This document shows positions 6,241 through 31,360 of a DNA stretch of 34,791 nucleotides, piece by piece. Positions within the stretch are counted from its first letter, which is position 1. Each line of letters starts with the position of its first letter. The DNA is taken from contig CADEGL010000022.1 of the NCBI GenBank assembly GCA_902826885.1, forward strand, positions 1,504-36,294. The letters run 5' to 3'. The translations under genes were made by a program, and so were the position numbers. The notes beneath the pieces are model-generated. The model did not search any database. It saw only the letters and a list, made by a program, of their open reading frames with translations, and had not been told where the DNA came from. The stretch is from an uncultured Alphaproteobacteria bacterium. Its GTDB lineage: Bacteria; Pseudomonadota; Alphaproteobacteria; CADEGL01.

Positions 6241-7056
6241 CTACTCGACCTTGTAGAGCTTCATGGAAGCGTTCATCACCTTTTCGTAGGCGGCCACCGC
6301 CGGCGGGTCGTAGTCGCGGGTGGGCTCGGGTTCCAGGTCGAAATTCCCCGCGCGGTCGCGTCCGCGCACGAGGGTGGCCGACATGAAGCCGCCCTTCTGG
6401 TTCTTCACATGCGGCGGCGCGAACAAGCAGCCGAAGCCGATGCGCGGCCGGTCGGATGTGTTCGGCGCCGAGCCATGCACCACGTTGGCGTTATGGATCG
6501 AGATCTGGCCGGGCTCCAACGCCGCCGTCACGCGGCGGCCATCGCCGGTATCCAGTCCCACCACCTGGCGCGAGAATTTCAGCATGTGGTTCTCGGTCGG
6601 GATCAGCTCGTAGGGCACGTCGCCGAGCGTGTGACTGTTCCTGATGAACTGCATGGCGCCGTTATCGAGCTTGGAATCGGTCAAGGCGATCCACGCGTTG
6701 ATCGCGAGCGGCGGATCGAACTTCATGTAGGAGCTGTCCTGATGCCAGGCCACGAAGCCGGGATCGCGCGCGTCCTTCCACAGGAAGCCGGTCTCCAGGC
6801 ACACAATGTCCGGCCCGATCAAATCCTCGACCACGTCGAGTAGCTTCGGCGTGCGGATCAGCTTGGCCAGCGCGGTCAGCAGCAGATGCGGCTTGCCGCG
6901 CAGATGTTCCTTGGCGCGCTTGCCGCTTTCCTTTTCCCACACACCCGCCGCATCCAGAACCGCTTGCGCGTCCGCTGGCGGCATGACGGTGACCGGCGTG
7001 ACAAAACCCTCGCGGCGGTAATGGGCGACCTGATCTTCGGAAAGACTCTTGGGCAT
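6241..7056 (-). CDS. Phytanoyl-CoA dioxygenase (PhyH) family protein
   Basis: The 271-residue product is a non-haem Fe(II)/2-oxoglutarate oxygenase of the PhyH family. WHQDSS supplies His105 and Asp107 of the 2-His-1-carboxylate triad, and NANVVHGSAPNTSDRPRIG supplies the distal His and the 2-oxoglutarate-binding Arg. Because the Asp is present it should hydroxylate rather than halogenate. The N-terminus (LSEDQVAHYRREGFV) is the usual family opening. The substrate is unknown. The upstream 147 bases are AT-rich with palindromes and are shared with the divergent gene at 7204. It is less similar to the two PhyH proteins at 20.4-22.1 kb than those are to each other. Confidence 0.9.
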   Translation of the reverse strand: MPKSLSEDQVAHYRREGFVTPVTVMPPADAQAVLDAAGVWEKESGKRAKEHLRGKPHLLLTALAKLIRTPKLLDVVEDLIGPDIVCLETGFLWKDARDPGFVAWHQDSSYMKFDPPLAINAWIALTDSKLDNGAMQFIRNSHTLGDVPYELIPTENHMLKFSRQVVGLDTGDGRRVTAALEPGQISIHNANVVHGSAPNTSDRPRIGFGCLFAPPHVKNQKGGFMSATLVRGRDRAGNFDLEPEPTRDYDPPAVAAYEKVMNASMKLYKVE

Positions 7057-20375: not shown

Positions 20376-21212
20376 TCAGGCCTCGGCGGCGGGCCGGGTC
20401 CACAAACGGGCGAAATACGCGTTGTCGATGGGATCGCCGGACTTGAGGCCGTTGCCCTCATAGGTGGGTTGGATTTCCCGTCCGCGCTCGACATAGACCG
20501 AGTCGTCGCCCACCAGAACGAACGAAACCGCGCGGCGGGGACGCGAGGCCTGGTTGCCCGGCGCGCCGTGCAGTGTCATGCCGTGGAACGCCAGGCAATC
20601 GCCGGGCTGCATGTCCCAGGACACGAGATCGAAATCGCGCCGCGCACGCGTCACGTCCGGCGGCGGCTCGAAACCGTCGTCGTCGCCATAGCCGGCATAC
20701 CAGCCGCCGTTGATGCGTTCGGGCCGGAACTTGCGGCCCCAGCGATGCGAGCCGGGAATTGCCTGAAGCGCGGTGTCCTGCGCGACCGGATCGAGCGGGA
20801 CCCACACCACGCACATCTGATCGCCTTCCATGCAGTAGAAGGGTTGATCGTGATGAAGCGGCGTGCGGCGCGAGGTGCCCGATTCCTTCACCCACATGGC
20901 GTCATGGAGAAGATTGACCCGCCGCGAGCGCATCAGGCGCCCGGCGATTTCGGCCACGGGTGAGCCGGTGATGAACTCGGTGAAGGCCGGCACGCGCCGT
21001 GCCATCTGCAGGTCGCTGAAGAACCCGCCTGTTTCGCCATCAACCGTATGGTTCTGGAAATTGGGTCCGGGGCGCGTGCGGGCGACGGAAACCGCGCCCT
21101 TCAGATGCTCGATCCATTCCGCATCGAACATGCCGCGCAGGCACAGGATGCCGTCGCGCGTGTAGGTTTCGATCGCCTGCTCGGTGACGGGATTCAGCGG
21201 TGTTTTGTTCAT
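20376..21212 (-). CDS. PhyH-family Fe(II)/2-oxoglutarate dioxygenase, copy B
   Basis: The 278-residue product has the iron ligands His120 and Asp122 (LHHDQPFY), a distal His in MTLHGAPGNQ, and an Arg in PRRAVSF for 2-oxoglutarate. The LDPVAQDTALQAIPGSHRWG block closely parallels [20 protein letters not shown] in the gene upstream, so the two are tandem paralogues. The gap between them is 23 bases. The pair is inserted, in the opposite direction, between dsbA and aroQ of the housekeeping series. The substrate is unknown. Asp in the triad indicates a hydroxylase. Confidence 0.9.
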   Translation of the reverse strand: MNKTPLNPVTEQAIETYTRDGILCLRGMFDAEWIEHLKGAVSVARTRPGPNFQNHTVDGETGGFFSDLQMARRVPAFTEFITGSPVAEIAGRLMRSRRVNLLHDAMWVKESGTSRRTPLHHDQPFYCMEGDQMCVVWVPLDPVAQDTALQAIPGSHRWGRKFRPERINGGWYAGYGDDDGFEPPPDVTRARRDFDLVSWDMQPGDCLAFHGMTLHGAPGNQASRPRRAVSFVLVGDDSVYVERGREIQPTYEGNGLKSGDPIDNAYFARLWTRPAAEA

Positions 21213-21235: not shown

Positions 21236-22066
21236 CTAGCGCTTGGGCCAGACTTTCGGAAACAGCTCTTCGTCGACCAGCCGCTCGCCCTTTGCGACCT
21301 TCAGCATCGGGTTGTACTGCACTTCCATCTCGCTGCGATGGCCCATCACCGTGTCGTCGCCGAGCCAGGTGGTCGAGACCGCGCGGCGGCGGCGCGATCC
21401 CGACATGTTGCCGCGCGCGCCGTGGACCGCCATGCCGTTAAAGGCGATGCAGTCGCCGGGTTCGACGTCCCACGACAGGATTTCGTAGCGGTCGCCCTCG
21501 GCGTCGAAATCGGGCGGACGGATATGGCCCTGGTCCTGTTGGATGACATCCTCGTCGTCCTTGAGCATGACGGCCGAGAAGGACTTGCCCCACCGGTGGG
21601 AGCCTTTGACCACGCGCAGCGCCGTGTCGGCCGACACGGGATCGAGCGGGAACCACATAATGACGACCTTGTTCCCGTCGACCGGGTAATAGACCTGGTC
21701 TTGATGCCAGGCGCTGGGCCGCGCGGTCTTGGGCTCCTTCACGAACAAACCGTCCATGAAGAAATGGACCTGGGCCGAGCGAGTCAGCCGCGCCGCGATC
21801 TCGCCGCCGGGAGAATTCACGGCGAAGTCGCGAAACGGCGCCAGGCGGCGCCATAGAAAATACTCCGTGTAAAAGAACCCAGGGTCGCCCGGCGCGGACT
21901 GGATGTAATGATGCGGGCCATGATCCTTGAGCGCTTCCTCGGCGCCCGCGGCCAGCCGGGCCAGCCAGGCCGGGTCGACCACACCCCGGAGGCAAACCCC
22001 GCCATCGGCCTCATAGGCCGAAACCTCGGAATCCGTGACCAGGCGGGTTGGGCGGCTACTATTCAT
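21236..22066 (-). CDS. PhyH-family Fe(II)/2-oxoglutarate dioxygenase, copy A
   Basis: The product is 276 residues from the ATG at 22066, which has AGGAG eight bases upstream; an ATG two codons earlier is an alternative. Iron ligands are His121 and Asp123 (WHQDQVYY), with a distal His in [10 protein letters not shown]. The RRRRAVST stretch carries the 2-oxoglutarate Arg. It is a tandem paralogue of the next gene. The 182-base gap to aroQ contains GTATAC palindromes at 22106-22111 and 22143-22148 and a GGCCCCG-ACC-CGGGGCC hairpin at 22151-22167. Substrate unknown; paired PhyH paralogues may act on successive or related substrates (inference). Confidence 0.9.
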
Positions 22067-22105
22067 GGCCATCTCTCCTGCGTCGGGCCGACCGGCGCCG
22101 TACCC

Positions 22106-22167
22106 GTATACGCGCGTACCGCACGCGTTCGTCCTCAAAATCGTATACCGGGCCCCGACCCGGGGCC
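22106..22167. promoter_or_regulatory. Divergent regulatory region phyH pair / aroQ
   Basis: Two GTATAC palindromes (22106-22111, 22143-22148) and a perfect 7-bp hairpin (22151-22167, ACC loop) lie here. On the minus strand TTGGCC followed after 16 bases by TATACG (four of six) is a possible promoter for the PhyH pair. The stretch at 22126-22138 resembles one before the other PhyH gene. Confidence 0.35.
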
Positions 22168-22248
22168 AAACGGGCGGAAGCCAGCATTGCGCCCCTTCCC
22201 GCATTGGGCTATCCCTGTCCCACCGGTCGCCGTTCCGGAGGGTGGGTT

Positions 22249-22707
22249 TTGGCGAAACTACCAACAGTCGTGGTCTTGAACGGCCCCAACCTCAACATGC
22301 TGGGGAAACGGGAGCCCACCATCTACGGCCGCGACACGCTCGCGGACGTGGAAACGGCTTGCCGCGCCCACGCCAAGACTCTGGGCCTGGCGCTCGATTT
22401 CCGCCAGTCCAACCATGAAGGCGAACTGGTCGGCTGGATTCAGGAAGCCCGCGGCAAGGCCGCCGGCCTCGTGATCAACGCCGCGGCGCTGACCCATACG
22501 TCGGTCGCCCTTCTGGACGCGCTTCAGGCAGCCGAAGTTCCGACCATCGAGGTGCATTTGTCGAACATCTACCGGCGTGAGCCGTTCCGCCATCACTCCT
22601 ATATCTCCCGCGCCGCCGTGGGTGTGATCTGCGGCCTGGGCCCGCGCGGCTATCTGATGGCGCTCGACGCGCTGGCCGGCATGGTCAAGGCCAAGGGGAA
22701 GCGCTGA
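22249..22707 (+). CDS. aroQ: 3-dehydroquinate dehydratase, type II
   Basis: The product is 152 residues from a TTG at 22249 with GGAGG seven bases upstream; no better start exists before the conserved [18 protein letters not shown] opening. Other family marks are [15 protein letters not shown] and [17 protein letters not shown]. The usual NPGAYTHTS loop reads NAAALTHTS, a mild variation. It dehydrates 3-dehydroquinate in the shikimate pathway as a dodecamer. The stop overlaps the accB start (TGATG), linking it to the acetyl-CoA carboxylase genes, a common alphaproteobacterial order. Confidence 0.95.
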
Positions 22708-27102: not shown

Positions 27103-28020
27103 ATGACCGCCGCCCATGCCGCGTCCGCCCGCACCCGTTTCTGGCTCGGCAGCGTCCTGGCGCTGGCCTCCTCGGTCACCTTCAGCCTGAATCTCGCTCT
27201 CGCGCGCCTCTCTTACGATTCGGGCGCCAATCCGCTTTCCGTGAATTTGGTCCGGGCGGCGTTTCTCGTCCTCTGCCTCTACATCTTCCTCAAGGCAAGC
27301 GGGCGTCCGACGGCGCTGCCCCGCCGGGAGCGCACGCTCTGCTTCCTGTTAGGGCTCGTGTGGGCCGTACAGGTGATCGGTCTTTTGCTCGCCATCGCTT
27401 TCATCCCCGTCGGCCTGGCTGTCCTGACCTACTACACCTATCCCTTGCTGATCGCCGCCATGGCAGCGGCGATGGGACGCGAACGGCTCACCGTTTCCTC
27501 TCTCGCGTTGATGGTTCTCGCCTTTGCCGGCTTGATCATCTCGCTCCAGGTGCCCGAAGGCACCCTCGACTGGCGCGGTGTGGCCCTGGCCCTGATATCG
27601 GCCCTGTCCATGGCAACCGTCATGACCCTAAGCGAGCGCTTCATCCACGGCCGGGACAGCCGGACCGTCACGCTTCACATCATGCTGGCCGTGCTCGGCG
27701 TCCTGATCCTGATGGTGCTTGCTGGCAGCGAGCTATCATGGCCGGCCGATTTCGCCGGTTGGGCGGCCGTCGCGGGCGCGGCGATCTTCCTCGCCCTTGC
27801 CATCACGACCCTGTTCATGGCGATCGGCCTAATCGGGCCGTTGCGCACGAGCATGATCGACAACGGCTCGCCCGTCTGGTCGATCCTGTTCGCGGCAATC
27901 CTGCTGGGGGAAATGCTGTCGCCGCTTCAGCTATCGGGAACCGCGCTGGTCATCGCGGCGATCGTCGGCAATCAGGTGCTGCATCACCGTCAAGCCCGCG
28001 CGCACGCGGCCAACCCTTAA
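27103..28020 (+). CDS. EamA/DMT-family transporter
   Basis: The 305-residue product has ten predicted membrane helices arranged as two EamA repeats. The first repeat opens SVLALASSVTFSLNLALARL; the second starts near residue 165 (WRGVALALISALSMATVM). The DNGSPVWSILFAAILLGE segment before the last helices is typical. Such proteins usually export amino acids or metabolites; the substrate is unknown. The stop codon shares TTAA with the convergent M24 gene. Confidence 0.88.
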   Translation: MTAAHAASARTRFWLGSVLALASSVTFSLNLALARLSYDSGANPLSVNLVRAAFLVLCLYIFLKASGRPTALPRRERTLCFLLGLVWAVQVIGLLLAIAFIPVGLAVLTYYTYPLLIAAMAAAMGRERLTVSSLALMVLAFAGLIISLQVPEGTLDWRGVALALISALSMATVMTLSERFIHGRDSRTVTLHIMLAVLGVLILMVLAGSELSWPADFAGWAAVAGAAIFLALAITTLFMAIGLIGPLRTSMIDNGSPVWSILFAAILLGEMLSPLQLSGTALVIAAIVGNQVLHHRQARAHAANP

Positions 28021-29219
28021 GCGGAGACGACGTGCAGGTCGCGCGTCTTCTGGGTCAACGGCTCGCAGCCTTTGTCCGTGATCAACAACGTCTCGCTCAG
28101 ACCGATGCCGAAGCGATTGGGCACCCTGAAGCAGGTTGGGGTGTGAAACACCATGTTGGGCTTGAGCACGGTCTCGTCGCCCTCGGCGAAGAACGCCGAG
28201 CCTTCGACCCACGAGGGCGGGAACTGCGCGCCCACGGTATAGCCGTAGACGCCTGAATGGAACGCCTCGCCCGCGACCGGCGCCAGCGCCTTGCGCGCCT
28301 CGACGGCGACGTCGTGGCAGGTCCGTCCGGGCTTGGCCGCCGCGATGATGCGCGCGACGCAATCCTTCAAGGCTTCATTCACGCGCAGAACCTGTTCGCC
28401 GGGCTTGCCGATGAAAGCCGTGCGCATCATGGGCGAGCAATAGCGCTTGTAGACACCGCCAAACTCCAGGAACACCGTATCCCCCACCTTCAGCGGCACG
28501 CGCAGGAAATGGGTATGCGCCCAGCCATGCCGATGACCGGAACTGACGATGGGCTGGATGCTCATGAATTCGCTGCCCGCCCGCGCCATGGCCTCGTAAG
28601 CCACGCCGGCGACCTCGCCGTCGGTCTTGTGCGGCGCGATCGCCGCCAAGCCCGCCTGGATGCCGGCCCAGGTGATGGCGGCCGCCTCGCGGTGGCACTC
28701 CAGCTCGGCCGCGGACTTCACCACCCGTGATTTGTAGAGGATGTCGCTGGCGTCCACGAATGACGTACCTTCCAGCGCCGCCTCCAGGTCGCGCAGATGC
28801 TGGATTCGAAATCCGGTCGTCAGCGCCTCGATGCCGATGCGCTTGCCGACCAGCCCCCGCGCCCGCAGAAGCCCTTTCAGCTGATCGACGATATCGCCGG
28901 ATTTCGACCAGTCGTAACCGATCACTTCGTCGATCCAGGTCTTTAGGACCGCGACGCCGACCTCGAGCGACGCCACCTGAATCGCGGCGTCGCCTTTCCG
29001 CGGCAGGAGGACGCACCCGTGCAGCGACGTCTCGAAGGTGTAGTAACCGGAAACATAAAACATGTTGCCGGGATCGCTGAGCAGCAACGCGTCCAGATCC
29101 CGCGCGTCCATCTCGGCGTGAAGCCGCTTCACGCGCGCGTCGTATTCCGCCTTCGGAAAGGACAACTCGGAGGGAATTGGCTCGCTCTTCAGCGCCCGCA
29201 CATAGGCCTTATCGTCCAT
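28017..29219 (-). CDS. M24-fold hydrolase lacking metal ligands, ectoine-hydrolase-like
   Basis: The 400-residue product has a creatinase N-terminal domain (about 20-155; MDARDLDALLLSDPGNMFYVSGY) and a pita-bread M24 domain (about 165-390). The five M24 metal ligands (Asp, Asp, His, Glu, Glu) read Glu252, Pro263, Tyr (GVYGYTVG), Thr (VFHTPT) and Glu376, so only two acidic positions remain. His235/His237 (AHTHFLR) are kept. From memory, the LEFGGVYKRY...SPMMRT pattern resembles DoeA/EutD ectoine hydrolase, a metal-free M24 member of about 400 residues. Creatinase is another metal-free relative. A C-N bond hydrolase is the most likely role. Neighbours are a VOC gene 26 bases upstream and a divergent M20 hydrolase; no doeB-like gene of the known type is seen. 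Confidence 0.82.
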   Translation of the reverse strand: MDDKAYVRALKSEPIPSELSFPKAEYDARVKRLHAEMDARDLDALLLSDPGNMFYVSGYYTFETSLHGCVLLPRKGDAAIQVASLEVGVAVLKTWIDEVIGYDWSKSGDIVDQLKGLLRARGLVGKRIGIEALTTGFRIQHLRDLEAALEGTSFVDASDILYKSRVVKSAAELECHREAAAITWAGIQAGLAAIAPHKTDGEVAGVAYEAMARAGSEFMSIQPIVSSGHRHGWAHTHFLRVPLKVGDTVFLEFGGVYKRYCSPMMRTAFIGKPGEQVLRVNEALKDCVARIIAAAKPGRTCHDVAVEARKALAPVAGEAFHSGVYGYTVGAQFPPSWVEGSAFFAEGDETVLKPNMVFHTPTCFRVPNRFGIGLSETLLITDKGCEPLTQKTRDLHVVSA

Positions 29220-29686: not shown

Positions 29687-29719
29687 GTGCAAAGAGCCGC
29701 CCTCGGGGGAGGACACCGA

Positions 29720-31360
29720 ATGCCGACCAAACGCCGTCACGCGACAAAAGTGCCTGGCTTGACTCCGGCGAAGCGCACCGCCTTCGCCTGGGTCGACGAA
29801 AATCTGCCGCGCCTGTCGGCCTGGAACCAGACCGTCTGGCACTACGCCGAATCGGCGTGGCGCGAATACCGCTCGGCCGCCCTCTATGTCGATCTCTTGC
29901 GCCGGGAAGGTTTCGAGGTCGAGGAAGGCAGCGCGGGCATGCCCACGGCCTTCGTCGCGACCTTCCGAAACGGGCGCGGGCCAACCTTGGCCAGCTACGC
30001 CGAGTACGACGCCATCCCCGGCTGCTCGCAGAAGGCCGCGCCCTATGAAGCGCCGCGCGAGGGCGCCAGCCGCTATGCGCCCGGCCATACCGACCCGCAC
30101 TCGGCGCTGGGTATCGGCGCATTGGGCGGGGTTCTGGCGGCCAAGGAGGCCATGGTCCGCCACAACCTCAAAGGCACGCTCAAACTGTTCGGCGAACCGG
30201 CCGAAAAGGTGTGCGGTTCGAAGGATATCCACGCCCTGCGCGGCTATTACGACGATCTGGACGCGGCCGTCAGCTTCCACCCGACCTACATCGCCGAACT
30301 GAACAACACGGTCGTATGGGAAACGCATGGCGGCTCGTACTGGAGCCGCGTCTACACCTTCGAATGCACCGAGGCGCATACCTGGAACAGCGTGGGCGCC
30401 GTCGCCAGCCCCACGCACACCCATGCGACCTTCATGGCGCGCGCGCCGGGTGCGGTGGACGCGGTGTGCCTGATGCACACGGCGACCAAGTATTTCCGCG
30501 AATCCATGGCGCCCTTCACCGGCAATTGGTGCCTGAACGAGGCCATCCTGGTCGCGGGTCAGGCGACCGCCGACAATCTGCCCGCCCATGTGGGCCAGAT
30601 CCAGTTCGCCGCGCGCGCACCCTCGCTCGACATGCAGGAGCGCATCTGGAGCGTGATCGAGCGCAACGCACGCGAGATCGCCAAGATGACCCACTGCAAG
30701 GTGACGGGCACCTGGGTCGCGAAGACGCGCCCAGCTCTTGCCAATCACGTCATGGCCGATCTGGTCTATGACAACCTGGTTCTGGCCGGACCGCCCGCGG
30801 TGGACGAGGAAGCCCGCGCGTTCGGCCGCGCGATCCAGAAGAACCTGGGCATCAAGCCCATGCGCGATCCGTTCCTGGCCGAGCTGACCGAGCTGTGCCC
30901 GCCGCGCGAATCCGAAGCGCGCGTGCGCAAGTTGACGCCGGAATGGCAGACCCATTTCGGCGTCGACGACTATGTCGAATACACCTGGCATTGCCCGACC
31001 GCGCGCCTGTACATCGCACGGCCGGTGATGCGCCCTGCCCATCCCGGCCAGATGTATCCGGAATGGACGTTCCACGCGCTCGGCGGCGTGCCGGCCTGCA
31101 TCGACCCCATGATCCGCAGCGCCTCGCGTACCATCGGCGCCAGTCTGGTGGAGTTGCTGGCCAAACCGCAGACGTTGACGCGCGCGAAGGCGGAGTTCCG
31201 CCAGCGCACCGGCGGCGGCATCGGGGGCAAGAAATGGCTCGCGCCGCTCCTGCCCAAGAACACCAAGCCGCCATCCTATTTCCGTTGGCCGGAATACGTG
31301 AACACGGCGCGCGGCGAGGATTGGTGGATTCCAGACCAGCCAGGCGACCGGGCGGACTAG
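29720..31360 (+). CDS. M20-type amidohydrolase, AbgB-like
   Basis: The product is 546 residues from the ATG at 29720 with GGGGAGGA upstream. It resembles the AbgB branch of M20 amidohydrolases: FAWVDENLPRLSAWNQTVWHYAE, ASYAEYDAIPGCSQ, the metal loop PGHTDPHSALGIGALGG, and SFHPTYIAELNNTVVWETHGG. The general base motif, usually PAEE, reads EPAEKVCGSK, so the catalytic Glu is kept while the following ligand Glu is Lys. It is about 70-100 residues longer than AbgB at the C-terminus (KKWLAPLLPKNTKPPSYF region). It probably cleaves an amide, but the altered site makes the metal count uncertain. The stop shares CTAG with the convergent BenE gene. Confidence 0.83.
   Translation: MPTKRRHATKVPGLTPAKRTAFAWVDENLPRLSAWNQTVWHYAESAWREYRSAALYVDLLRREGFEVEEGSAGMPTAFVATFRNGRGPTLASYAEYDAIPGCSQKAAPYEAPREGASRYAPGHTDPHSALGIGALGGVLAAKEAMVRHNLKGTLKLFGEPAEKVCGSKDIHALRGYYDDLDAAVSFHPTYIAELNNTVVWETHGGSYWSRVYTFECTEAHTWNSVGAVASPTHTHATFMARAPGAVDAVCLMHTATKYFRESMAPFTGNWCLNEAILVAGQATADNLPAHVGQIQFAARAPSLDMQERIWSVIERNAREIAKMTHCKVTGTWVAKTRPALANHVMADLVYDNLVLAGPPAVDEEARAFGRAIQKNLGIKPMRDPFLAELTELCPPRESEARVRKLTPEWQTHFGVDDYVEYTWHCPTARLYIARPVMRPAHPGQMYPEWTFHALGGVPACIDPMIRSASRTIGASLVELLAKPQTLTRAKAEFRQRTGGGIGGKKWLAPLLPKNTKPPSYFRWPEYVNTARGEDWWIPDQPGDRAD

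Follow-up and report, generated by a model that had tools for sequence, protein, structure and literature searches.

What does a protein of the M24 fold do once the residues that would bind its metal are gone? This question is raised by one gene in a window of 34,791 nucleotides (the whole stretch of DNA that was analysed) from an uncultured Alphaproteobacteria bacterium, whose genome of 3.87 Mb is assembled in 134 contigs; the gene lies on contig C22. The reading favoured here, which is given a probability of about 60%, is that the product is a metal-independent hydrolase similar to the ectoine hydrolases DoeA/EutD, which would use a covalent glutamate to open a small amidine or amide other than ectoine.

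A complete and conserved M24 gene

The open reading frame described in the earlier note on this DNA was confirmed (Table 1). It begins with ATG and encodes a complete product of 400 amino acids, in which a domain search found both the Creatinase_N and the Peptidase_M24 domains at full length. The score of 117 bits on PF00557 (gathering cut-off 23), along with matches to the pita-bread fold, places the product within the M24 superfamily. Its metal ligands are replaced, as detailed below, by residues that are invariant or nearly so in the 14 members of its clade (39-54% identity to the window protein), and 27 of the 34 near-complete M24 proteins in the same genome are likewise devoid of any ligand. 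Hence, the gene is a conserved one and not a decaying copy.

Table 1. The M24 gene, its proposed active-site codons, its neighbours in the window and its DoeA-like paralogues in the same genome
Feature	Position	Strand	Basis
M24-fold hydrolase gene (predicted), without all five metal ligands; H235 kept	28017..29219	-	ORF, domain matches, alignments
Glu252 codon, aligned with DoeA Glu255; proposed covalent nucleophile (putative role)	28464..28466	-	Alignment
His235 codon, invariant; aligned with DoeA H238 and the active-site His of prolidase	28515..28517	-	Conservation
EamA/DMT transporter gene, convergent; 4 bp overlap with the end of the M24 gene	27103..28020	+	
VOC (glyoxalase-fold) gene, upstream, 26 bp gap; possible operon partner, not conserved in L064	29246..29614	-	
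M20 amidohydrolase-like gene, divergent, beyond the VOC gene; possible functional partner	29714..31360	+	
DoeA-like paralogues L030, L032, L034, L036	Contigs C5, C19, C35, C16		440-562 bits on the DoeA model

Metal ligands and the peptidase annotation

The M24 metallopeptidases, prolidase and aminopeptidase P among them, hold their metal through the ligand set D, D, H, E and E. In an alignment with the prolidase of P. furiosus (1pv9), the window protein keeps 0/5 of these ligands (D→E252, D→P263, H→Y327, E→P361, E→S375). The earlier note had considered most of them lost; the loss is even more complete, as no ligand Glu is retained. It had rightly seen E252, P263 and Y327 at ligand positions, but its last two assignments were each one residue off: the fourth ligand, the Glu of 'IEPG' in prolidase, is aligned with Pro361 and not with Thr, and the fifth, the Glu of 'IED', with Ser375 and not with Glu376. 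E376 pairs with the Asp adjoining the ligand Glu, and several gammaproteobacterial relatives have Asp at this position. One of the replacements, Asp by Glu, is conservative, and it is conceivable that the protein still binds a single metal weakly. His235 and His237, which had been described together as retained, are both in place, but H237 is variable in the clade (T/N/M/S/H). The residues conserved throughout the clade are H235, E252, Y260, Y327, PP-W337 and H359.

The relatives of the window protein are by default named 'Xaa-Pro peptidase family protein'. There is some ground for the name, since both the M24 Pfam family and prolidases are among the matches of the window protein, which has the active-site His and the two-domain architecture of prolidase or Xaa-Pro dipeptidase PepQ (PDB 1pv9, 1wy2). 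An ordinary Xaa-Pro peptidase that depends on metal is nevertheless highly improbable, as every one of the metal ligands of PepQ is replaced, and the warning that such an annotation would mislead is borne out. Even the DMSP lyase DddP (PDB 4b28; structural Z only 33), an M24-like protein that has turned the fold to small-molecule chemistry and is no peptidase, uses metal and keeps its metal-binding residues and binuclear site (PMC4108388).

The absence of all metal ligands would also fit a catalytically dead protein that has kept the fold for binding or regulation. Non-enzymatic proteins of the M24 fold are known, which include Spt16, found among the structural matches, and PA2G4/Ebp1 (PMC3888471). 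Such a pseudoenzyme is unlikely, however, as His235, Glu252, Tyr260, Tyr327 and His359 are conserved as they are in the active DoeA, and one member of the clade is encoded within a catabolic gene cluster.

Likeness to the ectoine hydrolase DoeA/EutD

The favoured reading of a metal-independent, DoeA-like hydrolase draws on both sequence and predicted structure. DoeA is the best match among solved structures by sequence (153 bits). When an AlphaFold2 model of the window protein, made from 50 aligned sequences (pLDDT 94.1, pTM 0.92), was ranked by Foldseek and VIA-align against known structures, those of DoeA came first (Z 48-49.9, rmsd 1.5 Å; best Z 49.9 over 381 residues), with creatinase at about 42 and prolidases at about 41 or less. 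The references were TIGR02993, NF038259 and PDB 6twj, 6twk and 6yo9 for DoeA/EutD, and PDB 1chm, 1kp0 and 7yto for creatinase (creatine amidinohydrolase).

The segment LEFGGVYKRY had reminded the earlier note of the covalent-Glu site of EutD/DoeA, and its Glu, E252, is indeed aligned with residue 255 in the 6twk chain of DoeA. The structural work on EutD by Mais and co-workers from 2020 is said to place the covalent intermediate on this residue, Glu255. Like DoeA, the window protein thereby joins a Glu at this position to the loss of the M24 metal ligands, and the two have in common the predicted fold, the His (238 in DoeA, 235 here), the Tyr (329 and 327), the PP-W motif and a further His (H361 and H359). 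The residues shared by the clades of both proteins are F21, R29, H235, Y260, Y327, P334-P335, W337 and H359.

Creatinase is another enzyme in which the M24 fold hydrolyses a C-N bond of a small molecule without metal, and its fold is also similar. However, it keeps the ligand His and the Glu of its 'MEP' motif, where the window protein has Tyr327 and Pro361, and the identity is about 22-25%. In the tree, where creatinase was represented by its C-domain only, it fell outside the Glu/Tyr clade on a long, partly covered and poorly resolved branch. The earlier proposal of a metal-free enzyme of the creatinase/ectoine-hydrolase type is supported on its DoeA side and not on the creatinase side.

Separation from DoeA proper

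The aligned catalytic residues and the first rank of DoeA among the structures could suggest that the window protein is simply a genuine, if divergent, hydrolase of ectoine or hydroxyectoine. Its scores on the curated NCBIfam models are far below the cut-offs (188 bits against 613 for TIGR02993 and 224.5 against 575 for NF038259), whereas four paralogues in the same genome come far closer to DoeA, just under the cut-off (Table 1). Two of these paralogues, on contigs C5 and C19, adjoin genes of Rieske oxygenases.

A phylogeny with DoeA/EutD, which the earlier note had proposed, sets the two apart. In the IQ-TREE analysis the window protein belongs to its own clade of 14 members (support 100/99), and the DoeA structure 6twj falls in another (98/97). 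Sequences from Marinobacter, Halomonas, Mesorhizobium and MAGs belong to the window clade. The split from DoeA recurred in a quick tree with plasmid relatives, where one Mesorhizobium and one Halomonas protein were found inside the window clade. Eight residues invariant in the DoeA clade (W49, S50, F51, Y52, R70, W157, W241 and W367) are replaced in the window clade and Q222, P361 and R365 are invariant in the window clade only, in a comparison which took in five DoeA-clade sequences by alignment rather than pocket coordinates, so that some of the differences may be incidental.

The ectoine operon is likewise absent, as no eutE/doeB gene adjoins the M24 gene. The nearest DoeB-like gene is on the same contig, which could be taken in favour of a true DoeA/EutD, but it lies 10.4 kb away and scores 303 bits, below its own cut-off of 402.7; at roughly one M24 gene per 110 kb such a distance is unremarkable, and this gene was rejected as a partner. 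On balance, a true DoeA/EutD is quite unlikely. A substrate other than ectoine is likely from the separate clade and the residue differences, rather than from the partner genes.

Proposed mechanism

In the DoeA-like, metal-independent mechanism proposed for the window protein, Glu252 would attack the amidine (or amide) carbon to form a covalent intermediate, while H235 with Y327/H359 may take acid-base roles and polarise the substrate. Water would then hydrolyse the Glu adduct to release an N-acyl, perhaps N-formyl, amine, and a separate deacylase could finish this product. The DoeA-clade paralogue L032 has Gln at the position of Glu252, which counts against the covalent-Glu reading. It is also conceivable, but not very likely, that the protein is a metal-free hydrolase or lyase without a covalent Glu, in which Glu252 would serve, for example, as a general base in the cleavage of an amide, lactam or ester. 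Creatinase, DddP and DoeA demonstrate that the fold supports different chemistries, and the pocket residues differ from those of DoeA; the arrangement of Glu, His and Tyr, however, is the same as in DoeA.

Gene neighbourhood

The VOC gene is the only same-strand neighbour near enough to form an operon with the M24 gene, and a promoter and terminator scan found nothing. The M20-like protein has a weak Pfam match and carries the motifs GHTDPHSALG and GEPAEKVCGSK, which seem to be altered forms of the usual M20 metal-site motifs. No neighbour is common to the window gene and its 54%-identical relative (locus L064), where the M24 gene is preceded by genes of a permease and two solute-binding proteins. 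The argument that unfamiliar partner genes imply a new substrate is therefore weak, and the deduction of a substrate from operon logic (VOC, M20, BenE, RidA and ureidoglycolate-lyase-like genes) was rejected on the same ground.

Across the genome, M20 genes do occur near DoeA-like M24 genes more often than expected: 4 of 12 are located no more than 1.5 kb from one, where 0.47 would be expected (P about 9e-4), a count based on 32 DoeA-like M24 genes or fragments, in which the window's own M20 gene is among the four and the family was chosen after it had been seen. Rieske oxygenases within the same distance number 4 of 20 (P about 7e-3). In four relatives (G001-G004), a hand count placed 14 of 62 M20 genes at 1.5 kb or less from an M24 gene of any ligand state, at loci that are partly orthologous and so not independent. 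AstE/AspA genes beside M24 genes were not significant, and tallies of neighbours against more distant genes gave weak differences only.

A further context comes from Mesorhizobium sp. 131-2-5, where a plasmid-borne clade member of 37% identity (WP_199202775.1) is part of a catabolic cluster. The other genes of this cluster encode an ABC importer, a regulator of the GntR type, sarcosine oxidase, an N-formylglutamate amidohydrolase, and dehydrogenases for aldehydes and alcohols. Both copies of N-formylglutamate amidohydrolase (PF05013) in the window's genome are on contigs C21 and C23, without an M24 match there. In ectoine breakdown, EutD is responsible for ring opening and works together with the deacetylase EutE (PMC8739950). 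By analogy, the M24-M20 and Mesorhizobium contexts may reflect a similar pair, in which a hydrolase would open an amidine and an N-deacylase would follow.

Other gene families were noticed around M24 genes. Asp/Glu/hydantoin-racemase-like genes adjoin M24 paralogues at L012, L017, L023 and L026, with three in a row in L026. PhyH-like (phytanoyl-CoA-dioxygenase) genes were recognised by sequence reading at 6241-7056, 20376-21212 and 21236-22264 of the window, and further homologues are found beside the M24 paralogue of L026. A sponge-symbiont explanation for the abundance of creatinase-like and PhyH genes was dropped for lack of evidence.

Expansion of M24 proteins in the genome and the order

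The genome of the window (G000) has 38 M24 matches, and the five genomes compared in its order, which represent one family and three genera, have 33-39 M24 genes each. Among 190 genomes of the class, most have about 1-8 M24 candidates and the highest count outside the order is 20, against 41 in G000 and 34 in G001. Besides the near-complete M24 proteins of G000 with no ligand, three of the 34 keep two or three ligands and four keep four or five. The intermediate type, with its two or three ligands (Asp and Glu retained, Tyr in place of His), is seen in L011:7309-8541, L014:6476-7669 and L015:6043-7257. Related M24 genes in L041 (G001) and L080 (Marinobacter salarius) appear to be interrupted by frameshifts or by stop codons in frame, and are either pseudogenes or the result of sequencing errors. 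MAGs with the same M24 proteins as the relatives G001-G004 bear the titles LacPavin, SI072, casp40 and AH-24oct19, which suggests aquatic habitats for the relatives in the order.

This order-wide expansion is more surprising than the single gene, and no report of it was found in a literature search of incomplete coverage. It may be speculated, tentatively, that in this order the M24 fold has given rise to some 25-30 covalent-Glu hydrolases per genome that work without metal. Each would act on a different cyclic amidine, formimino or N-acyl compound, and M20 deacylases would often be their partners. The group of the window gene would then act on a new substrate. One example would be an ectoine analogue that is a formamidine and yields a product in need of a deformylase, a possibility hinted at by the Mesorhizobium cluster.

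Implications

Default annotation labels M24 proteins without metal ligands as Xaa-Pro peptidases. If most of them are DoeA-like hydrolases, a considerable number of 'peptidases' from aquatic bacteria and rhizobia would be catabolic enzymes for small nitrogen compounds. Since members of the window clade are present in the culturable genera Marinobacter, Halomonas and Mesorhizobium, their substrate can be sought directly.
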